From Gammaproteobacteria bacterium (lineage in GTDB: Bacteria > Pseudomonadota > Gammaproteobacteria > Steroidobacterales > Woeseiaceae): a stretch of DNA of 58,309 nt. Both the position numbers and the translations under genes were made by a program. The notes under the pieces are model-generated. The model had not been told where the DNA came from, searched no databases, and saw only the letters and a list, made by a program, of their open reading frames with translations. Within the stretch, counting starts at the first letter, position 1; each line of letters opens with the position of its first letter. Positions 1,054 to 58,309 of the stretch are shown here, in pieces. The stretch covers positions 1-58,309 of the forward strand of contig JAACFJ010000021.1 of NCBI GenBank assembly GCA_009937505.1, read 5' to 3'.

Positions 1054-1674
1054 ATGGCTCGATCACAAAAGTTCTGGAACCGGATCGCGGAAAGGTACGC
1101 GAAAAAGCCGGTAGGCGACGAAGCGGCCTATCAAAAGAAACTCGCCATGACCCGCGAATATTTCCGACAGGACATGGAGGTGCTCGAAATCGGCTGCGGT
1201 ACTGGCTCGACCGCGATCGCGCATGCGCCGCACGTAGGGCACGTTCGTGCGACGGACATCTCGGAGAAAATGATCGAGATAGCGAAGCGCAAGGCGGCCA
1301 CGGCCGGCGTAGAGAACGTGACGTTCGAAGCCCTTGCCATCGAGGATCTCGACGTAGCTTCCGAATCAGTGGACGCCGTGCTGGCGCTCAGCCTTTTGCA
1401 CCTGCTCGATGACAAGGAAGCGGTCATCGCCCGAATCCATGACACTCTCAGGCCGGGCGGGATCTTCGTCAGCAACACGGTGTGTCTCGGCGACAGCATG
1501 AAATGGTTCCGGTTTGTCGGACCGATCGGCACGTGGCTCGGTATCTTCCCGCTCGTGCGGATTTTCACCAGGACCGAACTCGAGAGTAGCTTCAGGAGTG
1601 CCGGGTTCGACATCGAACATGCATGGCAGCCCGATAAGAGGGTAGTCTTTATTATCGCCCGTAAAGCCCGTTGA
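1054..1674 (+). CDS. Class I SAM-dependent methyltransferase
   Basis: This 206-residue protein has a Rossmann-fold methyltransferase core. Motif I is VLEIGCGTGS (about residues 45-54), which binds S-adenosylmethionine. It is followed by the acidic strand end RATDIS and a post-motif LSLLHLLDD. A hydrophobic stretch near residues 150-170 suggests a small-molecule or lipid-like substrate, but the substrate cannot be named. The frame opens at 979, but ATG 1054 has GGAGG seven bases upstream and places the start after the palindrome, so I chose it. The next gene, rraA, starts 34 bases after the stop on the same strand, so the two may be cotranscribed. Confidence 0.85.
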   Translation: MARSQKFWNRIAERYAKKPVGDEAAYQKKLAMTREYFRQDMEVLEIGCGTGSTAIAHAPHVGHVRATDISEKMIEIAKRKAATAGVENVTFEALAIEDLDVASESVDAVLALSLLHLLDDKEAVIARIHDTLRPGGIFVSNTVCLGDSMKWFRFVGPIGTWLGIFPLVRIFTRTELESSFRSAGFDIEHAWQPDKRVVFIIARKAR

Positions 1675-1708
1675 ATAGGCCGCGAATCACGATACAAGGA
1701 GAGTGCCG

Positions 1709-2185
1709 ATGCGAGCGACGACTGATCTCTACGACGACTTTGAGGATTCGTGCGAGACCTGTTCCATCCAGTTCAGGGATTTCGGGGGACGTAATGCTTT
1801 CTTCGGCAGGATTCGAACCGTCAAGTGCTTCCATGACAATGTCCTGTTTCGTGAGCTGCTGAACGAACCCGGCGAAGGCGACGTCATCGTTGTCGATGGT
1901 GGCGGTTCCACGGCGATAGCACTGATGGGCGACATGCTCGCGGCGAGAGCGCGTGATAATGGCTGGGCGGGCGTCATCATCAACGGTGCCATTCGTGACT
2001 CGGCTGAAATCGCCGGTATCGACATCGGCGTCAAGGCGCTCGGGGTAAACCCCGCCAAAAGCGAAAAAAAGGGCGAGGGCGAAACGGACACCGAGCTGGA
2101 GTTCGGTGGCGCCCGTTTTCGGCCGGGCCACTGGGTCTATTGCGACGAAGACGGAGTTCTGGTCTCTCCCGAAAAGATCGAGTGA
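1709..2185 (+). CDS. rraA: RraA-like regulator of RNase E activity
   Basis: The 158-residue product matches RraA in length and pattern: FGGRNAFFGRIRTVKCF near the N-terminus, VVDGGGSTAIALMGD, GVIINGAIRDSAEI, and a C-terminal FGGARFRPGHWVYCDEDG. In E. coli RraA forms a ring-shaped trimer that binds RNase E and inhibits mRNA decay. Some homologues are instead aldolases or methyltransferase-like demethylmenaquinone enzymes, and the sequence alone does not exclude this. A GTG lies six bases upstream at 1703, but the AAGGA at 1696-1700 is better spaced for ATG 1709. Confidence 0.88.
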   Translation: MRATTDLYDDFEDSCETCSIQFRDFGGRNAFFGRIRTVKCFHDNVLFRELLNEPGEGDVIVVDGGGSTAIALMGDMLAARARDNGWAGVIINGAIRDSAEIAGIDIGVKALGVNPAKSEKKGEGETDTELEFGGARFRPGHWVYCDEDGVLVSPEKIE

Positions 2186-2342
2186 AACCGACTTTTCATG
2201 TCAACGTGACAGTCGCTGCGTCATTACTCGCTCTGGAGCAATGAAAGCATCGACCCCGTGAAAGTACCGCGCCCACGGGTACGTGTCAGCACTTAGCCCC
2301 CTGTGGCTTACCGAAATTGGGCTGGTGAGGCCATGCAGGTAG

Positions 2343-2582
2343 TATTTTGGTTCCCGCCGTCGAATTCCGGAGTCCACCAACATCGCCAGCCCTAGCGTAA
2401 GACGCCACAGTACAGGCTCGCACCTGGCGATTGGCAACTGGAGTCCGTCGGAGCAGGTCTGCGAGCTTGCGGGTATCGTCCCTGGCGCAAGCACCGACGA
2501 GCTGCTTTACAAGCTGCTGGCCGCCCTTGCGGCGGTCCTGGGCGCGCGACGGGCATACGTAACCGAGAATTTCGACCCCGGC
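2343..2582 (+). other. Open GAF-coding extension upstream of the annotated kinase start
   Basis: The kinase frame stays open upstream of ATG 2583 to a TAG at 2340. From about 2475 the translation reads like the beginning of a GAF domain (LLYKLLAALAAVLGARRAYV). There is no in-frame ATG, GTG or TTG anywhere between 2343 and 2582. The only candidates are CTG at 2424 and ATT at 2430. Either translation starts at a rare codon, the original start has been lost through deletion, or the protein begins with a truncated GAF domain at 2583. The rest of the 2186-2342 gap shows nothing recognisable. Confidence 0.6.
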
Positions 2583-4424
2583 ATGTCCCGTACCGTAGCG
2601 TCCTGGGAGGAGGGCAAGCCCGGCCCCGTTAGAGAATACGCCTTGAGTGGTACGCCCTGTGCGGCGGTTATGCGCCATGGCGTTCAGGTAGTCGATTGTG
2701 AGCTGAGCAGGCGATATACGCTGGACAAGTCCAGTATCGGCTACGGCTGCGAGAGCTTCGTCGGCAGCGCGATCGTCAATCGCGGAGGCACTAAAATTGG
2801 CCAGATCTGCGTGTTCGGCACCCAGCCGCTGCAGGACACGGAGATGGCCAGCGCGCTGGTATCGCTGGCCGCGGTCAGGGTCTCTGCAGAGCTGGAGCAT
2901 CGTCAGCAGCAGGCAGCGCTCGCACGATCCGAAGCGTACTCCAAAGCAATCGTCGCGACGGCTGCCGAAGGCATTGTCACGCTTGACGCCCAGGGGCGGA
3001 TCGAATCCTTTAACCGTGCCGCGGAAGAGATGTTCGGCTACGCTGCCGAAGAGCTGATTGGCAAAGACGTTAATGTCCTGATTCCCGAACCCTATCGCAG
3101 CAAGCATACCGGCTATGTAGACCGGTACGTTGCCACCGGTGAGGGCACCATCTGCGGTGCCGGCCGTGAGGTTCCGGCCCTGCGCAAAGACGGTACCGAG
3201 TTTCCGATCTACCTTGCTGCAAGCGAAGTGCTGCTCGACGGCGAGCAGTGCTTCGCCGGAATAATGCGCGACATCTCGGAGCAAAAGGCGGCCGAGGAAT
3301 CTCGAGTCTCGGTAGAGCGCCGATTTCGTGCCGTATTCGAACAGCGGCATCAGCTTGCAGGGATTCTGAACGTCGATGGTACGGTCCTAGAAGCCAACCA
3401 GAAGTCACTGGAATTTGCAGGACTCGAACGCAATGCCGTTCTGGGCCAGCCGTTCTGGGCGACACCGTGGTGGCGTCACTCGCCCGAAATGCAGGAGCGC
3501 ATCCACGACGCCGTCAAATCGGCAGCGGCGGGGGAGACCGTACGATTCGAGGCAACCTGCCTGCGCAAAGACGGACAAATGGCGATCCTGGATTTTTCGG
3601 TACGGCCCATCCCGGATGCGGAGGGGGAGACCGTCTTTCTCATAACGGAGAGTCACGACATCACGGAGCGCAAGCTGGCGGAGGAGGAAGCACGACAACA
3701 CCGTGCTCGAGTCGCACATGTCGCGCGGCTCAGCACCCTCGGGGAAATGGCAGCCGGTATTGCACACGAGATCAATCAGCCGTTAACGGCCATATCGCTA
3801 TTCGCGCAGGCTGGGAGGCGCCTGGTCGACTCCGGTGATTTCGAGCGAATTAGTGAGGTTTGTGAAAAGCTCAACGAACATGCGCTGCGGGCAAGCGACG
3901 TTGTCGAACGCATGCAAAAGATGGCGAGAGAAGGCGAGAACGTCAAGGAAACTGTTGACTGCAACGACCTGCTCGAGAGTGCCGTGAAGCTTGCAGAGTC
4001 CGAGGCAAGAATTTATGACATCCAGATCAAGTTCGAGAAGGGCCCGAACCTCTCCCTGGTGTCCGTGGATGGGGTACAGATTCAGCAGGTGGCGCTCAAT
4101 TTGCTGCGCAATGCTATGGAGGCGATGATCGCGACGGGCGATGACGATGAAAGGTCAGTGTCGATTCGAACCCGGATGCTCGATGGGGACCAGATCGAGG
4201 TCTCGGTCAGTGACAGGGGGTGTGGGGTACCGGATGACTTCGCCGACAGCCTGTTTACCCCGTTTTCGACGACGAAATCGTCCGGCATGGGCATGGGCCT
4301 GTCGATCAGCCAGGCGATCATCAGGGCACACGGCGGCAGTATCGGCTTCAGCAACAATGATGGCCGCGGCACGACATTCTGGTTCACGCTTCCCGCAATA
4401 GAGCGAGAGACTCGCCATGAGTGA
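2583..4424 (+). CDS. FixL-like sensor histidine kinase (GAF, haem-type PAS, PAS, HisKA, HATPase)
   Basis: The 613-residue protein is soluble, with no membrane segment. The order is partial GAF (1-105), PAS1 (117-235), PAS2 (about 245-365), HisKA with H395 in GIAHEINQPL, and HATPase with the GMGMGLSIS box. PAS1 is strikingly FixL-like: EPYRSKHTGY followed by GAGREV. H175 matches the haem-ligating His of FixL, and R195 lies 20 residues later, the same spacing as the oxygen-contacting Arg. A haem oxygen or NO sensor is therefore likely. The FixJ-type regulator overlaps by 8 bases and is the obvious partner. The true N-terminus probably lies upstream (see the extension entry). Confidence 0.85.
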   Translation: MSRTVASWEEGKPGPVREYALSGTPCAAVMRHGVQVVDCELSRRYTLDKSSIGYGCESFVGSAIVNRGGTKIGQICVFGTQPLQDTEMASALVSLAAVRVSAELEHRQQQAALARSEAYSKAIVATAAEGIVTLDAQGRIESFNRAAEEMFGYAAEELIGKDVNVLIPEPYRSKHTGYVDRYVATGEGTICGAGREVPALRKDGTEFPIYLAASEVLLDGEQCFAGIMRDISEQKAAEESRVSVERRFRAVFEQRHQLAGILNVDGTVLEANQKSLEFAGLERNAVLGQPFWATPWWRHSPEMQERIHDAVKSAAAGETVRFEATCLRKDGQMAILDFSVRPIPDAEGETVFLITESHDITERKLAEEEARQHRARVAHVARLSTLGEMAAGIAHEINQPLTAISLFAQAGRRLVDSGDFERISEVCEKLNEHALRASDVVERMQKMAREGENVKETVDCNDLLESAVKLAESEARIYDIQIKFEKGPNLSLVSVDGVQIQQVALNLLRNAMEAMIATGDDDERSVSIRTRMLDGDQIEVSVSDRGCGVPDDFADSLFTPFSTTKSSGMGMGLSISQAIIRAHGGSIGFSNNDGRGTTFWFTLPAIERETRHE

Positions 4425-50185: not shown

Positions 50186-50200
50186 TCGTGGAATGAAAAT

Positions 50201-50228
50201 GGAATAATCATCCTTGATGAGGCGTCAT
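50201..50228 (+). promoter_or_regulatory. ECF-type promoter upstream of the sox operon
   Basis: GGAATA (50201-50206) and CGTCAT (50223-50228) are separated by exactly 16 bases. The same elements with the same spacing precede the ECF sigma operon (minus) and the DsrE2 gene. A start near 50235 would leave almost no leader for soxX ATG 50239, so soxX may really begin at ATG 50266. Confidence 0.65.
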
Positions 50229-50238
50229 ACACTAGTAG

Positions 50239-50625
50239 ATGCACGGTAAAAACCTGAAATTTTTCATGCCGTTGTGCGATTTTCGCCGGCTTGCGGCCGG
50301 AATCGCTGCGATGTCGGTACTTGCTCTTGCCGCGGCGCATGCGACAACGGACGACGGCATCGCGGCGGGCAAGTCCCTGGCGATGGAACGCAGCAAGGGA
50401 AACTGCCTCGCATGCCACAGTATCGAGGACGGGGAACTTCCCGGTACGATCGGCCCGCCGCTGGTAGCAATGAAATTGCGTTTCCCGGAACGCGCGGCGC
50501 TGAAGCAGCAGATCTGCGATGCGACGGTTCGGAATGTGGATTCGCGGATGCCGCCATTTTGCAGGCACGGGATCTTGACGGAAGACGAAGTCGAATTGAT
50601 TGTCGATTACCTGTACACGCTGTAG
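50239..50625 (+). CDS. soxX: SoxX, monohaem cytochrome c of the thiosulfate-oxidising complex
   Basis: The 128-residue product has a signal peptide (AAGIAAMSVLALAAAHA) and one haem c site C56-L-A-C59-H60 in GNCLACHSIEDG, with the distal Met M104 in DSRMPPFC. SoxX pairs with SoxA to couple thiosulfate to the SoxY Cys and accepts the electrons. The ATG at 50239 has no ribosome-binding site and is very near the predicted transcription start; ATG 50266 is an alternative that still encodes the signal. It is first of the operon soxX-Y-Z-A-K-B-dsrE1. Confidence 0.92.
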   Translation: MHGKNLKFFMPLCDFRRLAAGIAAMSVLALAAAHATTDDGIAAGKSLAMERSKGNCLACHSIEDGELPGTIGPPLVAMKLRFPERAALKQQICDATVRNVDSRMPPFCRHGILTEDEVELIVDYLYTL

Positions 50626-50653: not shown

Positions 50654-51106
50654 ATGGATGTAGGGAGAAGGCTATTACTCAAGGCTGGGGTCGCGTTCGC
50701 GGCGCTCGCGGCCCTGCCGAGAACGCTGCTGGCCGCAGCCTGGCCCGAGAAGGCGTTTGCAGCCACCGAGGCCGGGGCGGCGATGTCGACGCTGTTCGGC
50801 ACGAACCAGGCTACGCCGTCCGCGGAGATCAAGCTGAAAGTGCCGGAAATAGCGGAAAACGGTGCCGTGGTGCCGGTCACGATCAGCACGACGCTCGAGA
50901 ACGTGGAGTCGATCAGTATCGTGGTCGAGCACAATCCGCGGCCGCTGGCGGCCAGTTTCGAGATTCCGGCGGGGACGCTGCCCAATGTATCGAGCCGGAT
51001 AAAGATGGGTGAAACGTCCGACGTAATTGCGGTCGTCAAGACGGATACAGGTATCTACAGCACGTCGAAGCAGGTCAAGGTTACGATCGGCGGCTGTGGC
51101 GGCTAG
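50654..51106 (+). CDS. soxY: SoxY, sulfur-carrier subunit
   Basis: The 150-residue protein has a Tat signal (GRRLLLKAGVAFAALAALP) and the C-terminal GGCGG arm with C148, the Cys that carries covalently bound sulfur intermediates in the periplasm. The Ig-like body contains VVPVTISTTLENVESISIVV. It is exported together with SoxZ, which lacks a signal. The gap to soxX is 28 bases. Confidence 0.95.
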   Translation: MDVGRRLLLKAGVAFAALAALPRTLLAAAWPEKAFAATEAGAAMSTLFGTNQATPSAEIKLKVPEIAENGAVVPVTISTTLENVESISIVVEHNPRPLAASFEIPAGTLPNVSSRIKMGETSDVIAVVKTDTGIYSTSKQVKVTIGGCGG

Positions 51107-51127: not shown

Positions 51128-51442
51128 ATGGCGAGCAAGATAAAGGTCAAGGCGAAACTGTCGGGGGATTTGGCGGAAATCAAGAGCCTCATGCTGCATC
51201 CGATGGAAACCGGGTCGCGAAAAGACCCTGACACCGGCGAACTGGTGCCCACGCACCACATCACCCAACTGACGTTCACGAACAACGAGAAGACGGTGAT
51301 GGTTGCCAACTTCAGCACGGCAGTATCGAAGAACCCGTATTTCAGTTTCAGCTTCAGTGGCGCAAAGGCGGGTGACACGCTCAAGGTCAGCTGGATCGAC
51401 AACAAGGGTGCTACGGACGAACTCGAGACCGTACTGAAATAG
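51128..51442 (+). CDS. soxZ: SoxZ, partner of the SoxY carrier
   Basis: The 104-residue protein lacks a signal peptide and matches SoxZ: ASKIKVKAKLSGD at the N-terminus, MLHPMETGSRKDPDTGELVP, and the C-terminal beta-rich FSFSFSGAKAGDTLKVSW. SoxYZ is the heterodimeric carrier that the other Sox enzymes act on. ATG 51128 has GGAGGGAGACGAGTA upstream, an excellent ribosome-binding site. Confidence 0.95.
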   Translation: MASKIKVKAKLSGDLAEIKSLMLHPMETGSRKDPDTGELVPTHHITQLTFTNNEKTVMVANFSTAVSKNPYFSFSFSGAKAGDTLKVSWIDNKGATDELETVLK

Positions 51443-51467: not shown

Positions 51468-52307
51468 ATGAAGAATAGTGCCGCCATGCTGTTGCTAAGC
51501 CTCGTGCCGATGCTGACGCAGCAGGCAGCCGTAGCGGGGCCCGAGGATGACCGAGAGGCCTTCGTCGAATATTTCCAGTCACGATTTCCCGACGTAGCGT
51601 TTGCGGAGTTTGCAAACGGCATCTATGCGATCGACGAAGACGCGCGTGGGCAATGGCTGGACATTGAGGAGTTTCCGCCCTACGAATTTGCGGTTGAACA
51701 GGGCGAGACCCTGTGGCAAGAGGCTTTGCCGGACGGGGCGCGGCTTGCTGATTGTTTTGGCCAATCCACGGGCGATATCCGCCCGGCTTATCCCCGCTTC
51801 GACGCCGGCAGGGGCGAGGTCGTGACGCTGGCGGTGGCCATCAACGACTGCAGGCAGACGCAGAAGTTGCCGGTATGGCCCTATGACTCCGAAGAGCTGA
51901 TCAGCATCACGGCGTATCTCGCGTACGCGGCGCGGGGAAAGCCGGTTGTGACGCAAATTCATGCGGACGAGCCTGGCGCGCTCGCCGCCTACGAGGAGGG
52001 CAAGCGCTTCTACTACAGCAAGCGCGGGCAGCTGAATTTCGCGTGTTCCGATTGCCACGTGACGTCGGTCGGGCTCCATGTTCGCGCGGACAGGTTGAGT
52101 CCGAGCCTGGGCCATACCACGCATTTCCCGGTTTATCGCTCCAAGCTGGGCACGGTGATCTCGTTGCACCAACGCTTCTCCGGTTGTGTGCGAGACGTAC
52201 GGGCAAAACCGTTCGCACTGCAAAGCGAAGAATTCCGGAATCTCGAATACTTCCTGAGCTATATGAGTAACGGACTCGAATTCAATGGCCCCGGTGCGCG
52301 CAAGTAA
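51468..52307 (+). CDS. soxA: SoxA, monohaem L-cysteine S-thiosulfotransferase subunit
   Basis: The 279-residue protein has a signal peptide and one haem c site, C193-S-D-C196-H197. The active-site Cys that becomes a persulfide haem ligand is C240 in FSGCVRDVRAKPF. In the N-terminal half, C96 and C128 stand where dihaem SoxA proteins have a second haem, so this is the one-haem, disulfide type. It forms SoxAX with SoxX. The soxK gene starts inside its last codons. Confidence 0.95.
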   Translation: MKNSAAMLLLSLVPMLTQQAAVAGPEDDREAFVEYFQSRFPDVAFAEFANGIYAIDEDARGQWLDIEEFPPYEFAVEQGETLWQEALPDGARLADCFGQSTGDIRPAYPRFDAGRGEVVTLAVAINDCRQTQKLPVWPYDSEELISITAYLAYAARGKPVVTQIHADEPGALAAYEEGKRFYYSKRGQLNFACSDCHVTSVGLHVRADRLSPSLGHTTHFPVYRSKLGTVISLHQRFSGCVRDVRAKPFALQSEEFRNLEYFLSYMSNGLEFNGPGARK

Positions 52308-52596
52308 ACGCGGCATGGCGCTGGCCGTTCTCGCAGCGGTGTTCGCTGCAGCCGGATGCACGACGGCATTCGAGCAGCAGCTGGCGGAGGCGGAGCTGCT
52401 GCGAGTCGAGGCTGCCGCCGCGGGCGCCGAGTGGCTGCAAACCGGGGCGCTGCTGGAGCAGGCTCGCGATGAAGCGGCAGGCGGTGACATGGACGCCGCA
52501 CGAGCACTGGTCGACAAAGCGCGATTCCAGGGCGAAGCCGCACTCCGCCAGGCCGAACATGAAGCCTCTGCCTGGCAGAATCGGGTCGTGCAGTGA
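52285..52596 (+). CDS. soxK: SoxAX-binding lipoprotein, SoxK/SAXB-like
   Basis: The 103-residue protein has a lipoprotein-type signal (LAVLAAVFAAAGC, Cys25) and a helical mature part with GAEWLQTGALLEQARDEAAGG and ALVDKARFQGEAALRQAEHEA. This pattern matches the small SoxAX-binding protein (SAXB/SoxK), which raises SoxAX activity, and it occupies the usual place between soxA and soxB. It overlaps soxA by 23 bases. An alternative start is ATG 52315. Confidence 0.78.
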   Translation: MAPVRASKRGMALAVLAAVFAAAGCTTAFEQQLAEAELLRVEAAAAGAEWLQTGALLEQARDEAAGGDMDAARALVDKARFQGEAALRQAEHEASAWQNRVVQ

Positions 52597-52612
52597 CGGC
52601 GAAAGGGGAAAG

Positions 52613-54376
52613 GTGGACAGGCGCGAATTCCTGAGGCTGCTGGCCATCGCCGGCATCGCTACCGGTTCGGCCGGTTGCGCGGCCCGCAAACAATTGCCCG
52701 AAGCAGACATCTACGCGGCCGAGCCTTTCGGCCAGGCGCGCCTGATGCACTTTACCGACTGCCACGCCCAGCTGTTGCCGGTCTACTTTCGTGAGCCCAG
52801 CGTCAACCTGGGATTCGGCGACGCAAGGAACCGTCCGCCACATATTGTCGGCGAAGCGCTGCTCGAGCATGCGGGGATCGACCCGGGCAGCCGTTTTGCG
52901 CATGCCATCACTCATCTCGACTTCGTGTCCGCGGCACGACGCTACGGCACGGTGGGTGGATTCGCACACCTGAAGACACTGGTCGATCGGCTGCGCGACG
53001 AGGCGGGGCCGCAGAGTTGCCTGTTGCTCGATGGCGGCGATACCTGGCAGGGGTCCGGCACGGCGTACTGGACCCGAGGACGGGACATGGTAGGTGCCTG
53101 CAACCGTCTCGGCGTCGACGTCATGACCGGCCACTGGGAATTCACCTACGAGGACGCGGAAGTGCTGCGGAACATCGACGAGTTCGCCGGCGAATTCGTG
53201 GCGCAGAATGTCCGACTCACTGACGACGCCCTGTTCTCCGGTGCAGCGGCGTTCGACGAAGATTCGGGCCACGTGTTCCGGCCCTATACCGTGCGCGATG
53301 CAGGCGGCAGAAGGATCGCTGTCATCGGCCAGGCCTTTCCATACACGCCGATTGCGAACCCGTCACGTTTCATCCCCGACTGGACCTTCGGCATCCGCGC
53401 CGGCGAACTGCAGGGCCTTGTCGACGCGGTGCGCGAGAACGAGCGACCCGATGCGGTCGTCCTCTTGTCGCACAACGGCATGGACGTCGACCTGAAGCTC
53501 GCGCGCGTGGTTTCGGGTATCGATGCGATCCTCGGTGGACATACGCACGACGGCGTACCTGTTCCGGTCATCGTCGACAATAACGCAGGCCGCACCGTGG
53601 TAACGAATGCGGGTTCCAACGGCAAGTTTCTCGGCGTGCTGGACCTCGAATTCGGCAATGGCGGTGTCAGCGATTTCCGTTACCGCCTCTTGCCCGTGTT
53701 CTCGAACCTGCTGCCTGCCGACGCGGATATGAGCGCTTACATTGCGAGCGTCCGCAAACCCTGGCGGCAGGTACTCGAGGAACCGCTCGCAACTGCCGAT
53801 GTATTGCTTTATCGCCGCGGCAATTTCAACGGCACGTTCGACCAGGTGATCTGTGATGCTCAACGTGCGGTCGGTGACGCACAGATCGCGTTGTCGCCGG
53901 GATTCCGCTGGGGGACGACCGTTCTGCCGGGCGATACGGTGACCATGGAGCGTGTCATGGACCAGACCTGCATCACGTACCCGGAGACCTACGTTCGTGA
54001 CATGACCGGCGAGCAGATAAAACTCATCCTGGAAGACGTGTGCGATAACCTGTTCAATCCGGATCCTTTCTATCAGCAGGGCGGAGACATGGTTCGTACC
54101 GGCGGCATGAATTACGTGTGCGAGCCGACCGCCGGCGCCGGCGAACGAATTTCGGCGATGACACTGGATGACGGCACGCCGGTAGAGGCGGGCAGGAGCT
54201 ACCGTGTCGCCGGCTGGGCGACGGTCGGGAGCCAGGCGCCGGGGCCACCCATATGGGAGGTCGTCGCCGAATATTTGCGCGACCTGAAAGTTGCGAAGAT
54301 CGAGCGGTTGAATACGCCTGTGCTGAAGGGCGTGGAAAACAACCTCGGGGTAGCCGACTATCCCGGACAAGCCTGA
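52613..54376 (+). CDS. soxB: SoxB, S-sulfosulfanyl-L-cysteine sulfohydrolase
   Basis: The 587-residue periplasmic enzyme hydrolyses sulfate off the SoxYZ-bound sulfone, using two Mn ions. A Tat signal is present (DRREFLRLLAIAGIATG). Metal-site motifs are HFTDCHAQLLP, LLDGGDTWQGSG, MTGHWEFT, LLSHNGMD and LGGHTHDG. The C-terminal 5'-nucleotidase-like domain is complete. GTG 52613 follows AAGGGG. The frame opens at 52469 inside soxK. The window has no soxCD, so sulfane sulfur left on SoxY must be handled elsewhere. Confidence 0.96.
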   Translation: MDRREFLRLLAIAGIATGSAGCAARKQLPEADIYAAEPFGQARLMHFTDCHAQLLPVYFREPSVNLGFGDARNRPPHIVGEALLEHAGIDPGSRFAHAITHLDFVSAARRYGTVGGFAHLKTLVDRLRDEAGPQSCLLLDGGDTWQGSGTAYWTRGRDMVGACNRLGVDVMTGHWEFTYEDAEVLRNIDEFAGEFVAQNVRLTDDALFSGAAAFDEDSGHVFRPYTVRDAGGRRIAVIGQAFPYTPIANPSRFIPDWTFGIRAGELQGLVDAVRENERPDAVVLLSHNGMDVDLKLARVVSGIDAILGGHTHDGVPVPVIVDNNAGRTVVTNAGSNGKFLGVLDLEFGNGGVSDFRYRLLPVFSNLLPADADMSAYIASVRKPWRQVLEEPLATADVLLYRRGNFNGTFDQVICDAQRAVGDAQIALSPGFRWGTTVLPGDTVTMERVMDQTCITYPETYVRDMTGEQIKLILEDVCDNLFNPDPFYQQGGDMVRTGGMNYVCEPTAGAGERISAMTLDDGTPVEAGRSYRVAGWATVGSQAPGPPIWEVVAEYLRDLKVAKIERLNTPVLKGVENNLGVADYPGQA

Positions 54377-54388
54377 GATGCCAAAGCC

Positions 54389-54835
54389 ATGAGAACCTCT
54401 TGCCTGTTCGCCCTGGTGTTGATCCTCCTGAGCCTTGCGGGCGCGCAGGCTTCGGCCGACGACGAGGGCAAGCCGTTTGCAGAGGCAAGGATCGTCCTGC
54501 AGATGGCGGATGGCGATGCCGAATCACAGACCCGCGTTCTCAATGTCGCCAATAACCTGATCAAGCACTACGGTGGGCCGGATTTCGTCGATATCGAGAT
54601 CGTGGCGTACGGTCCCGGTCTGTCTCTGCTGTTCCCGGGAAATGCCAACGAAGAGCGAATTTCCAGCCTGTTGACCAACGAGGTGCGATTCGTCGGCTGT
54701 ATGAACACCGTCGAATCGATCGAGCGGGCTACGGGTGAGCGCCCGGATCTCATTCCCGAGACCATACCGGTGCAGACAGGGGTGGCGCGCCTGGTCGAGC
54801 GGGCGCAGCAAGGCTTCGTAGTAATCCGGCCCTAG
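54389..54835 (+). CDS. Periplasmic DsrE-like protein 1
   Basis: The 148-residue protein has a signal peptide (FALVLILLSLAGAQASA) and a DsrE/DsrF-like fold: RIVLQMADGDAESQTRVLNVANNLI, VDIEIVAYGPGLSLLF, VRFVGCMNTVESI. C104 sits where DsrE-family sulfurtransferases carry a Cys. It starts 12 bases after soxB and so ends the sox operon. It is about the same size as DsrE-like protein 2 (57471-57923). A role in accepting or trafficking sulfane sulfur from SoxYZ is likely but inferred. Confidence 0.75.
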   Translation: MRTSCLFALVLILLSLAGAQASADDEGKPFAEARIVLQMADGDAESQTRVLNVANNLIKHYGGPDFVDIEIVAYGPGLSLLFPGNANEERISSLLTNEVRFVGCMNTVESIERATGERPDLIPETIPVQTGVARLVERAQQGFVVIRP

Positions 54836-55003: not shown

Positions 55004-55960
55004 TCACAAGGGCTTGATTGCGAGTTCGTCGTCCGATGCGCGCAGGAAGCCGTAGCTTTCGTAAATGGCTTGCGCATCATCAGTCGCAAGGTAGGCAAGG
55101 TAACGGGCGGCGTTGTCGGCATTACGGCCGGTCTTCATGATGCCTATGGCGTAGTTCACCTTGTCCTGCTTGTTCAGGGGCGCCGGAATGGCGACACCGT
55201 CGATCGGGCGTCCTTCTGCTTTCGCATGAACGACTTCCGTCGTCCAGACGATGCCGACATCCGCCTCGCCCTTCTCTATCAGGTCCGGGGTCTCGCGATG
55301 ATGACGCGACGTAAACCAGGTCTTGCCTTCGACCGCCCAGCAGCTGCGGCACTCCTTGCCACCCGTTATCTTCTCGTGCAGCCCGAGGTCCTTGAGCATC
55401 TCGCTGCCGTAGAACTTGAAAATGCCTTCGGTTAGCGGATTCGGGTGCGACTGAACGAGATCGTCGCGGCCGAGATCCTCAGGGCCCTCGATGTTTTTCG
55501 GGTTTCCTTCCGCAACCATAAGTTCCAGCTTGTTGTGAATATAGATCGCGTATTCGTCCATCAGGCCCTTCTCGTTGAGTTTCCTCAAGTGGCCAATGTT
55601 GACGGAGGCGAACACGTCGGGGTTCATCGCCGTTTTCTCGCCCTCGATCTCGCCCTGCTTGAGCAACTGGTTCTTGAGAATCTGGCCGGGAGGAATCGTC
55701 TCGACGTAAACCGACTCGATGTCGGGGTTCTTCTTCTGGAAATCCGAGATCAGTTCCTGCATCACCATGAACTGGTTGCCTGCCAGGTACATGACGAGGT
55801 CGGCGGTATAGGAATCACCGATCGAGCCGTATTCCACTTCCCCGTTCGCATGGAACGTCCGGTAGTCCTTGCCATGGCCAGCGTCTTTGGATTCGGCTAC
55901 TGCGGTGCCGGACGCGGTGGCGAACAATCCCAGCAACGCAAGCTTTGCGGAAGTCTTCAT
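55004..55960 (-). CDS. Periplasmic solute-binding protein of the ECF operon
   Basis: The 318-residue protein has a signal peptide (LALLGLFATASGTAVA) and the two-lobed layout of ModA/tungstate-like or Fe-type solute-binding proteins (LVMYLAGNQFMVMQELISDF, PDVFASVNIGHL, GEADVGIVWTTEVVHAKAEG). It also has a C204-x2-C207 pair in GKECRSCWAVEG, not usual in that family. No permease or ATPase gene is nearby. It begins about 20 bases after the anti-sigma stop, so it belongs to the ECF operon and could deliver or sense a ligand, perhaps a sulfur oxyanion. The ligand is unknown. Confidence 0.78.
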   Translation of the reverse strand: MKTSAKLALLGLFATASGTAVAESKDAGHGKDYRTFHANGEVEYGSIGDSYTADLVMYLAGNQFMVMQELISDFQKKNPDIESVYVETIPPGQILKNQLLKQGEIEGEKTAMNPDVFASVNIGHLRKLNEKGLMDEYAIYIHNKLELMVAEGNPKNIEGPEDLGRDDLVQSHPNPLTEGIFKFYGSEMLKDLGLHEKITGGKECRSCWAVEGKTWFTSRHHRETPDLIEKGEADVGIVWTTEVVHAKAEGRPIDGVAIPAPLNKQDKVNYAIGIMKTGRNADNAARYLAYLATDDAQAIYESYGFLRASDDELAIKPL

Positions 55961-55980: not shown

Positions 55981-56685
55981 TCAGATCTTTTCGTATTTCC
56001 AGCCGTCCTGCATTCGCATGACGACCCGATCGAGCGCCGTGTAGTCCTGCTGGATGTTGGGCACGAGTATGACTTTCACGCCTTTCTCTTCGAGGCGCTG
56101 GATGCTCCTCGCGCAGGCGTAAAACACGACGTCATTTTCCTGCAGTGTGCGAATTTCCTCCGCGAACGAAGTGACGTCACTTCTCAGCAGGTCGAGCCCG
56201 CGCTCGTTCGCAACGATTTCCACGCGGCGATATTCTCCCTCGTCCGCGGAATCCAGCAGGTATTTCGCATGCGCCAGCGCCGACTGCATCTGCTCGGGGT
56301 CGCCGCTGACAATGTGCAGCAGGTAATTTCCGGTTTGTTCCAGTGCCTGGGCTGTTGGCGCCGGCTTGGCGGCCGGGGCTTTACTGATCAGACCCTGGCC
56401 AAAATAGCCGGCCGTGGCGCCAACTGCGAGCAAGATGCCAGCGACGAGAACCCCGCCAAAAGGGCCGGAACGCCTCAGCGCCGGTCCGCCAGGGCGTTTT
56501 GCAGGAGGCACATCGTCATAGGCATGGCGCACAAGCTCTTTGAGCTTGCGCAGCTGGCACAGCCGCAAATCGAGCTCGGGCGAGTGCGCCGACTCGTTGT
56601 ACAGGCGACTTTTCTCTTCCGGATCCAGTTCACCATCCACGAAAGCATTCAATTGCTCTTCGGAAAAATGTTCGTCCTTCTTCAT
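55981..56685 (-). CDS. Anti-sigma factor with membrane helix and periplasmic DsrE-like domain
   Basis: The 234-residue protein has an anti-sigma N-terminus (EEQLNAFVDGELDPEEK), but the HxxxCxxC zinc motif is only H34 with a lone C43. A single membrane helix follows (76-98), then a short Ala/Pro linker and a DsrE-like domain (119-234): LLHIVSGDPEQMQSALAHAK, YRRVEIVANERGLDLL, VVFYACARSIQRL with C191 at the conserved Cys. ATG 56685 overlaps the sigma stop (ATGA). It would hold the ECF factor at the membrane and release it when the periplasmic domain senses a sulfur species. I know no described example of this fusion. Confidence 0.8.
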   Translation of the reverse strand: MKKDEHFSEEQLNAFVDGELDPEEKSRLYNESAHSPELDLRLCQLRKLKELVRHAYDDVPPAKRPGGPALRRSGPFGGVLVAGILLAVGATAGYFGQGLISKAPAAKPAPTAQALEQTGNYLLHIVSGDPEQMQSALAHAKYLLDSADEGEYRRVEIVANERGLDLLRSDVTSFAEEIRTLQENDVVFYACARSIQRLEEKGVKVILVPNIQQDYTALDRVVMRMQDGWKYEKI

Positions 56686-57242
56686 TTCACCCTCTTCAAG
56701 GTCGCCGGTCGGCGCGGCGCCATGGCCGTGCCGACGTCTATCAGATGTTCCTTGAGCGCTCTGCGCCCTCTGCACAGGCGGCTCATAACCGTCCCTACCG
56801 GGATCTCCAGAATCTCCGCCACCGATGCATAGGTGAAGCCCTCGAGGTCCACCAACGTAACCACCTGGCACTGTGCCAACGGCAGCTTCCTGACGGCGCG
56901 ACGTACTTTGTCGACCAGCTGTTGCTTTTCCGTGTTCTGCTCCGGTGTAACCTCGTCAGCGATGACGACGTTTTCCGACGACACGACGTCACGTTTGGCG
57001 CGGTAATAGTCCTTGAGGCAGTTGGACAGGATGCGGAACAGCCAGGCTTCCGCTGCCCCAAGGTCTTTCAACTGCTTCTGATTGCTCAAGGCCTTGAACA
57101 TTGCCTGCTGCACCATGTCGTCTGCCAGGTGCGGATCGTGAGTCCAGGCATAGGCCATGCGATACAGCCGATCCCTGCTGTTCTCCACGAGTTTCCTGAA
57201 AGCCCGTCGCTGGCTGATTCCGAGGATTATTCTTTTAGGCAT
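56682..57242 (-). CDS. ECF RNA polymerase sigma factor
   Basis: The 186-residue protein has sigma region 2 (FRKLVENSRDRLYRMAYAWTHDPHLADDMVQQAMFKAL) and region 4 (QVVTLVDLEGFTYASVAEILEIPVGTVMSRLCRGRRAL). It directs RNA polymerase to specific promoters when not held by its anti-sigma factor, which follows with a four-base overlap. ATG 57242 is preceded by a GGGGGG run; the frame opens further upstream at 57350. Its own promoter-like site lies at 57280-57307, implying autoregulation. Confidence 0.93.
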   Translation of the reverse strand: MPKRIILGISQRRAFRKLVENSRDRLYRMAYAWTHDPHLADDMVQQAMFKALSNQKQLKDLGAAEAWLFRILSNCLKDYYRAKRDVVSSENVVIADEVTPEQNTEKQQLVDKVRRAVRKLPLAQCQVVTLVDLEGFTYASVAEILEIPVGTVMSRLCRGRRALKEHLIDVGTAMAPRRPATLKRVK

Positions 57243-57279: not shown

Positions 57280-57307
57280 CTGACGTGGCAAGTCGTGATT
57301 TTATTCC
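57280..57307 (-). promoter_or_regulatory. ECF-type promoter of the sigma-anti-sigma operon
   Basis: On the minus strand GGAATA (57302-57307) is followed after 16 bases by CGTCAG (57280-57285), 38 bases before the sigma start. It is identical in the -35 and in CGTCA to the site in front of soxX. Confidence 0.65.
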
Positions 57308-57357
57308 CTGCGGGAACAACGGTATGCCCTTTCGAGGCAATCGATTTCAAGGCTAAG

Positions 57358-57385
57358 GGATTAATCTGGCTGCTTCAAACGTCTG
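57358..57385 (+). promoter_or_regulatory. ECF-type promoter upstream of DsrE-like gene 2
   Basis: GGATTA (57358-57363) and CGTCTG (57380-57385) are separated by exactly 16 bases, pointing to the DsrE2-porin unit with a leader of about 80 bases. It differs from the other two sites by one base in each core element. Confidence 0.55.
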
Positions 57386-57470: not shown

Positions 57471-57923
57471 ATGAATATCCGTAGTTTACTGGGGCCAGGC
57501 AGTGTCCTTGTCGCGTTCTGCATGCTCTTTGCACCCCAGGCGCTGATGGCGCAGGAAGAGAAACCGTTTGCAGAGCACAAATTCGTGCTGCAGATCAGTG
57601 ACATGGACCCGTCGAAGCAGACGCTGGTACTCAATGTCGCGAGCAATATTCTCAAGGCCTACGGCCAGGATCAGGCGGATGTGGAGATCGTCGCATTCGG
57701 CCCGGGATTGCGCCTGTTATTCGAAGGAAACAGCAATGCCGGCCGCATCGACGGTCTTGTCGACAGCGGCGTACGATTTTTCGCATGCCAGAACACAATA
57801 ACCAACATGTCGAAAATAATCGGCGAACCGATCAAGGTGAACAGCCACGCATCGTCGGGCAAGGGCGGGATCGTGCGCATCAAGGAACTCGTTGATCAGG
57901 GCTACATGCTGGCGAAACCTTAA
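57471..57923 (+). CDS. Periplasmic DsrE-like protein 2
   Basis: The 150-residue protein has a signal peptide (LVAFCMLFAPQALMA) and a DsrE-like domain related to protein 1 throughout: KFVLQISDMDPSKQTLVLNVASNIL, VEIVAFGPGLRLLF, VRFFACQNTITNM with C106. It shares the V-E-I-V-A...G-L...L and V-x-F-x-x-C pattern with the anti-sigma C-terminal domain. GGAGG precedes ATG 57471. It is divergent from the ECF operon and may be cotranscribed with the porin 50 bases downstream. A role as periplasmic sulfur carrier or as ligand of the anti-sigma domain is inferred. Confidence 0.78.
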   Translation: MNIRSLLGPGSVLVAFCMLFAPQALMAQEEKPFAEHKFVLQISDMDPSKQTLVLNVASNILKAYGQDQADVEIVAFGPGLRLLFEGNSNAGRIDGLVDSGVRFFACQNTITNMSKIIGEPIKVNSHASSGKGGIVRIKELVDQGYMLAKP

Positions 57924-57973: not shown

Positions 57974-58309
57974 GTGAGAATTTCAAAAGATTATCAACGA
58001 GCATGGTCGGCAGCATTGCTGGCCGGGCTGCTTATATTCTCCGGCAGTGCGTTTTCGGCGAACTGGCTGCAGCTGCAGGGTACCGAGCCGGAAGGCGCAG
58101 AGCAGCTGGGCAAGGTCTGGGGATTCGTCCAGGTGCAGTACCAGGATGATTCCAGTGATCCGAACCCGGCCGGCGGATTCATTCCGCCCAAGACGATCGG
58201 GCCGAATCTCGAGACGCAGTCGGCGTTCAACGTCAACCGTGCGCGCATCGGCGTGCGCGGCGTGGCGATGCCTATCGATCAGAAGATCAATTACTTCGTC
58301 CTGCTGGAG
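57974..58309 (+). CDS. Outer-membrane porin, N-terminal part (3' truncated by window)
   Basis: The first 112 residues start at GTG 57974 and the frame runs to the window edge. A signal peptide (SAALLAGLLIFSGSAFSA) is followed by porin-like beta-strands KVWGFVQVQYQDD and FNVNRARIGVRGVAMPI, as in phosphate-selective porin O/P-type or OprO proteins. It follows DsrE-like gene 2 by 50 bases and may belong to the same transcript, providing anion entry for the periplasmic sulfur pathway. Confidence 0.75.
   Translation, partial: MRISKDYQRAWSAALLAGLLIFSGSAFSANWLQLQGTEPEGAEQLGKVWGFVQVQYQDDSSDPNPAGGFIPPKTIGPNLETQSAFNVNRARIGVRGVAMPIDQKINYFVLLE

Follow-up and report, generated by a model that had tools for sequence, protein, structure and literature searches.

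Anti-sigma factors that cross the membrane once and sense in the periplasm are an established type of regulator. ChrR, the anti-sigma factor of Rhodobacter sphaeroides SigE, joins an N-terminal anti-sigma fold to a separate sensor domain; it is soluble, its N-terminus binds zinc and its sensor is of the cupin type. DsrEFH and TusBCD are cytoplasmic heterohexamers for sulfur relay. Sulfite oxidation is controlled by ECF26 sigma/anti-sigma pairs, among them RpoE4-SMc04050 and RpoE1 of S. meliloti and SigE of Starkeya novella (PMC3511301, PMC6527743), and the sensing step of the anti-sigma factors in these sulfite-responsive ECF systems has been called an unknown mechanism (PMC6527743). The sox genes are also controlled by SoxR, which responds to thiosulfate and is a cytoplasmic DNA-binding repressor rather than a sigma/anti-sigma pair, and how thiosulfate induces sox genes is stated as unknown (PMC5748708).

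The sigma/anti-sigma pair described here lies in a stretch of 58,309 nucleotides (contig JAACFJ010000021.1, from a member of the gammaproteobacterial family Woeseiaceae), which was analysed as a whole and which we refer to as the window. The pair is like the ECF26 pairs in its predicted autoregulation of an ECF sigma factor, its downstream anti-sigma gene, its GGAAT / CGTC promoter core and its proposed response to a sulfur compound (PMC3511301, PMC6527743). It differs from them in its anti-sigma factor, as those of ECF26 are described as COG5662-type only (SMc04050 is set apart here by that description), and in its targets, which are sulfite dehydrogenases in the published ECF26 cases and are predicted here to be sox genes, secreted dsrE genes and a porin gene. 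We consider it likely that the pair is an autoregulated switch for reduced inorganic sulfur, in which an adduct on a single periplasmic cysteine, C191, would free the sigma factor. In the open-access literature we found no description of an anti-sigma factor with a DsrE sensor, secreted DsrE partners and sox targets, although the 2021 ECF reclassification may list the group without discussion.

The anti-sigma gene (55981-56685, minus strand; ATG at 56685, stop at 55981) encodes a protein of 234 aa and overlaps by 4 bases the gene upstream, which encodes an ECF sigma factor of 186 aa (56682-57242, minus strand) with normal region 2 and region 4 matches (Pfam Sigma70_r2 and r4_2). An initial annotation made from the sequence alone had given the same reading frame, coordinates and strand, and had proposed an N-terminal anti-sigma region, one membrane helix and a periplasmic DsrE-like domain with C191 at the family cysteine position. 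The N-terminus of this single-pass protein looks like an ECF anti-sigma domain (residues 1-57; 56515-56685, minus strand) of ChrR-like fold, without an HxxxCxxC zinc motif. Taken as a single sequence it gives a weak Pfam zf-HC2 match (E 0.0018) that falls under the Pfam cut-off, and the NCBIfam antisigma profile matches 8 of 65 relatives. AlphaFold2, run on an alignment of the relatives, gives a mean pLDDT of 87.8 for the whole protein, and residues 2-57 of the model superpose on ChrR (2z2s_D) over 56 residues with Z 5.0 and an rmsd of 2.2 A. By itself this match is marginal, yet it is in keeping with the gene order described below, and fold and gene order together lead us to infer inhibition of the sigma factor by the N-terminal domain. 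Beyond this fold the two proteins differ: the window protein spans the membrane with a helix, has DsrE as its sensor and lacks a zinc motif. We considered a zinc-finger redox switch and ruled it out: HxxxCxxC, the criterion for a ZAS (zinc anti-sigma) protein, is found in 0 of the 65 relatives. Twelve other proteobacterial anti-sigma factors that share the N-terminal region have a different C-terminal part, without DsrE.

The membrane helix (residues 77-99; 56389-56457, minus strand) is evident in the AlphaFold2 model, where residues 77-100 are helical, and in the hydropathy profile, the best 19-residue window of which starts at residue 78 with a value of 1.82. There are more K/R residues on the N-terminal side of the helix in 63 of the 65 relatives, so the C-terminus should be periplasmic; hydropathy and charge thus predict that the DsrE domain should lie outside the inner membrane.

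The nature of this domain (predicted DsrE-fold sensor, residues 118-234; 55984-56334, minus strand) was decided by a profile of the relatives and by structure, since Pfam and NCBIfam scans of the single protein are too weak. The whole protein matches Pfam DsrE (PF02635) with E 0.02 and the isolated domain with E 0.0045, at 15.5-17.6 bits against a gathering score of 22.7, and 17 of the 65 relatives are matched at E <= 0.01 (best 2.1e-8). The profile built from the 65 relatives, however, finds MTH1491 at 5e-22. AlphaFold2 predicts a DsrE fold for the C-terminal domain with a pLDDT of about 96; this model matches MTH1491 (1l1s) with Z 18.9 and an rmsd of 1.6 A, TusD with Z 13.1 and DsrE with Z 12.8, unrelated structures beginning at 6.8, and foldseek gives E 2.5e-8. 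Among solved structures, those of the MTH1491 / ST0148 subgroup come nearest to the sensor domain and also to the secreted protein of the locus (Z 17.5-18.9); they are stand-alone proteins of unknown function without a membrane helix or anti-sigma domain. DsrEFH and TusBCD share this fold (Z 12.8-13.1), with one key Cys carried by the DsrE/TusD subunit, but unlike the window protein they are neither membrane-bound nor regulators.

Four residues, D17, C191, W229 and Y231, are invariant in the 65 aligned sequences, and H124 is kept in 63. C191 (codon 56113-56115, minus strand) sits at the end of the strand formed by residues 186-190 and aligns with a Cys of MTH1491, which places it by sequence and model at the sulfur-carrying Cys position of the DsrE family. 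In all 65 relatives it is the one and only Cys of the periplasmic part. An intramolecular disulfide switch is thereby ruled out; C191 could instead take up sulfur as an adduct or bond to another molecule, such as the secreted DsrE protein. Sulfane sulfur carriage is reported for DsrE-type proteins, and thiosulfate carriage is cited for one archaeal homologue (PMC13047784).

In a sample of 369 gammaproteobacterial genomes (GTDB class), 79 contain a match at E <= 1e-4, about 68 of them, by row count, with both ends of the protein; several genomes have 2-4 copies. Identities among the relatives are mostly 28-41 percent, which indicates an old family and not a local oddity. A sample of 299 genomes from the phylum gave no full-length match outside the class. 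The partial matches there were examined as candidates and set aside: those to the DsrE profile are secreted DsrE proteins alone, without the anti-sigma part or a related sigma gene in the flanking sequence examined, and those to the N-terminal half are ordinary anti-sigma factors with another periplasmic part. In two of the loci outside the class (L102 and L106) the secreted DsrE gene stands beside a gene that, from its sequence, likely encodes a TAXI-type solute receptor.

Gene neighbourhoods of about 16 kb were compared around 59 copies and the closest relatives. The sigma gene lies directly upstream of the anti-sigma gene in 61 of 62 loci, in most of them with the same 4-base overlap, and the single exception begins 125 bases from a contig end. 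The initial annotation had named three outcomes that would speak against it, a C-terminal domain of another fold, a helix that is not a membrane segment and homologues apart from ECF sigma genes; all three were tested and none was found, so that its assignments stand, including the anti-sigma region and the position of C191.

A gene for a secreted DsrE-like protein is found near the pair in 39 of the 62 loci, usually divergent from the sigma gene, and is followed by a porin gene (Porin_4) in 32. The window has this arrangement: a secreted protein of 150 aa (57471-57923, plus strand), also predicted by structure comparison to have the DsrE fold and with one Cys in its mature form (C106), is encoded divergently from the sigma gene, and after it the start of a porin gene (57974-58309, plus strand), similar to Porin_4 of the other loci, is truncated by the contig end. 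The mature secreted DsrE protein has exactly one Cys in 46 of 46 cases examined. In two loci (L054 and L068) two sigma/anti-sigma(DsrE) pairs stand in tandem with two different secreted DsrE genes.

One reading of these neighbours is that the DsrE domain is a docking module for the secreted DsrE paralogue, in which case the signal would be the amount or oligomeric state of the paralogue and C191 would serve in packing. DsrE-family proteins form oligomers, and the co-encoded paralogue in those 39 loci has the same fold and the same promoter motif as the pair (see below). However, C191 is invariant in a setting where the neighbouring positions vary among the 65 relatives, and no secreted DsrE gene is nearby in 23 of the 62 loci, though it may be encoded elsewhere. 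We regard docking as unlikely. A cysteine that receives a sulfur adduct, as we propose, fits the sole Cys found both in the sensor and in its secreted partner, as expected of a one-Cys sulfur carrier.

To the other side of the pair, 20 bp downstream of the anti-sigma gene, the window has a gene for a periplasmic substrate-binding protein (ModA/sulfate-binding-like; 55004-55960, minus strand), which is kept beside the pair in 5 loci, those of the Woeseiaceae together with L071 and L076. Its product carries a CRSC motif, and no transporter genes were seen adjoining it. Beyond it lies a sox operon on the plus strand, consisting of soxX (50239-50625; the start may be a later ATG at 50266), soxY with a C-terminal GGCGG (50654-51106), soxZ (51128-51442), soxA (51468-52307) and soxB (52550-54376), all above the cut-offs of their profiles (TIGR04485, TIGR04488, TIGR04490, TIGR04484 and TIGR04486 respectively). 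The operon ends with a gene for a second secreted DsrE-like protein of 148 aa (54389-54835, plus strand), which starts 12 bp downstream of soxB. Sox genes adjoin the pair in the Woeseiaceae and in L095 and are about 5 kb away in L097; with about 6 of 62 loci in all, adjacency to sox genes was rejected as a general rule. In genome content the association is broader, SoxY being encoded in 60 of 68 genomes with the pair versus 130 of 301 without it.

Promoter motifs were sought by counting spaced word pairs in the 62 regions upstream of the sigma genes. The pair GGAAT-N17-CGT and related pairs occur in 37 of these, whereas no pair exceeds 4 in shuffled sequence; before the dsrE genes these words recur on the opposite strand. 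With the resulting weight matrix, GGAATAAA-N14-CGTCT, 91 of 95 regions score above the best shuffle; as base composition is all that the shuffles preserve and the matrix was derived from these same 95 regions, the regulon tests given below weigh more. The motif stands before the sigma gene and also before the dsrE-porin operon that diverges from it. Three predicted ECF promoters are present in the window, that of the sigma/anti-sigma operon (GGGAATAAA-N14-CGTCAG; 57280-57308, minus strand), that of the dsrE-porin operon (GGGATTAAT-N14-CGTCTG; 57357-57385, plus strand), which is the weakest of the three, and one directly before soxXYZAB (TGGAATAAT-N14-CGTCAT; 50200-50228, plus strand). The -10 box predicted for this last promoter stops just 10 bp short of the first soxX ATG (50223-50239), so either translation must begin at a later codon or the transcript must be leaderless.

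A held-out matrix, trained without the Woeseiaceae and two other sox-linked loci, gives its highest score in the 58-kb window to the sox site, at 21.2, followed by 17.6 for the sigma site and 12.2 for the dsrE site. Scores in 20 shuffled windows go no higher than 16.7, and the dsrE site, being below this, would not stand alone. The three closest relatives in which a sox operon adjoins the pair have the site at the same place, with scores of 26-27. Among soxY-upstream regions, 11 of 40 score above 19 in genomes with the pair versus 0 of 40 in genomes without it, where the best single region reaches 17.9; the opposite strand gives 0 of 40. Nearly all of the 11 sites lie directly before a soxX-type cytochrome gene, and they come from six families, the kinship among them weakening the nominal p-value of 0.003. 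As no site above 19 is found in the other 29 of the 40 regions from genomes with the pair, sox control would not be universal.

A search for strict matches in 42 genomes with the pair gives 39, with 24 at sigma or dsrE loci and 4 at sox, and ten genomes chosen as negatives give one. The remaining strict matches are two at other dsrE genes, one at a YeeE gene, one at a cytochrome c gene, two at genes for a TPR protein and five without an assignment. Unlinked or distal sites precede genes for SoxX, SoxC, two secreted DsrE proteins, a Sulf_transp (YeeE) protein and a cytochrome c. We consider the predicted regulon link between the sigma family and sulfur genes to be well supported by sequence, and because the motif of the sigma family also lies before sox operons and other sulfur genes, the case for a role in sensing reduced sulfur is much stronger than the sequence of a single protein could make it. 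A wider regulon in the genome of the window is not claimed, as a relaxed pattern gives 20 matches of which 17 resemble background, with 5 for the reversed-pattern control.

These targets bear on two other readings of the switch. The promoter core found here is the GGAAT / CGTC consensus published for the sulfite-induced ECF26 sigmas (PMC6527743), and one locus (L097) has a site before SoxC, of the sulfite dehydrogenase family. The signal might then be sulfite, as in Sinorhizobium and Starkeya, with C191 forming an S-sulfonate and the regulon serving sulfite/thiosulfate stress and not energy metabolism. Yet the targets found away from the pair are mainly operons led by soxX, secreted DsrE genes and a YeeE-type transporter gene rather than SorA/SorT, and DsrE proteins are known as carriers of sulfane sulfur or of thiosulfate (the latter as cited in PMC13047784). 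A sulfite signal seems to us improbable. Porin_4, a general porin, is the target met most often after dsrE, as might be expected if the protein were a general envelope-stress or porin-regulating anti-sigma factor whose DsrE domain is a relic or structural spacer, but the strict conservation of C191, W229 and Y231, the enrichment of sox sites and the co-occurrence of SoxY with the pair make this very hard to credit.

In the mechanism that we propose, the N-terminal domain would hold the sigma factor at the membrane and the periplasmic DsrE domain would act as the sensor, C191 receiving a sulfur adduct such as a persulfide or thiosulfonate from a small sulfur compound or from the co-encoded secreted DsrE protein. 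The adduct would alter the anti-sigma factor or its assembly, by conformational change or proteolysis, and so release the sigma factor, which would then read GGAATAAA-N14-CGTCT promoters at its own operon, at the operon of the secreted DsrE protein and the porin and, for the window and several further families, at the sox operon too. With reduced sulfur present, outer-membrane entry, periplasmic sulfur handling and thiosulfate oxidation would be induced. We think it probable that the switch detects reduced sulfur on the outer side of the inner membrane and induces the genes that use it.

As to the signal itself, the initial annotation had suggested a persulfide, a polysulfide or a SoxY-type intermediate. 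A SoxY-bound intermediate is not a general answer, because sox genes stand beside the pair in so few of the loci; a small sulfur compound, thiosulfate itself or the co-encoded secreted DsrE protein are equally possible. We offer more tentatively, as a possibility that we would not yet favour, a sulfur relay in which the secreted DsrE protein passes sulfane sulfur or thiosulfate to C191, such that DsrE-to-DsrE transfer would be the input of a sox-inducing ECF switch. If true, sox induction would work by DsrE sulfur transfer across many gammaproteobacterial families.

With its membrane sensor, single conserved Cys, sulfur-carrier fold and predicted motif, the family is a direct candidate for sox induction and would add DsrE to the signalling domains. 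The predicted targets exist in closed genomes, and the proposed sulfur-sensing part is testable by one point mutant and one reporter. The lineages with the pair include the Woeseiaceae, which are common in marine sediments (PMC7451513).

Several further observations concern individual loci. In L007 a gene for a YeeE-type sulfur transporter (1531-2673, minus strand) comes after dsrE and the porin gene, as it does in part in L008, and in genome G140 a YeeE-related gene carries a separate copy of the motif (L152). The two sites before the TPR-repeat protein (L161:1501 and L183:1504, both plus strand) come from two genomes of one genus. Lastly, in L048 (1-1362, minus strand) and L079 (5050-7224, minus strand) a SoxB-related metallophosphatase gene is divergent from the sigma gene and carries the motif, the L079 protein scoring below the SoxB cut-off.
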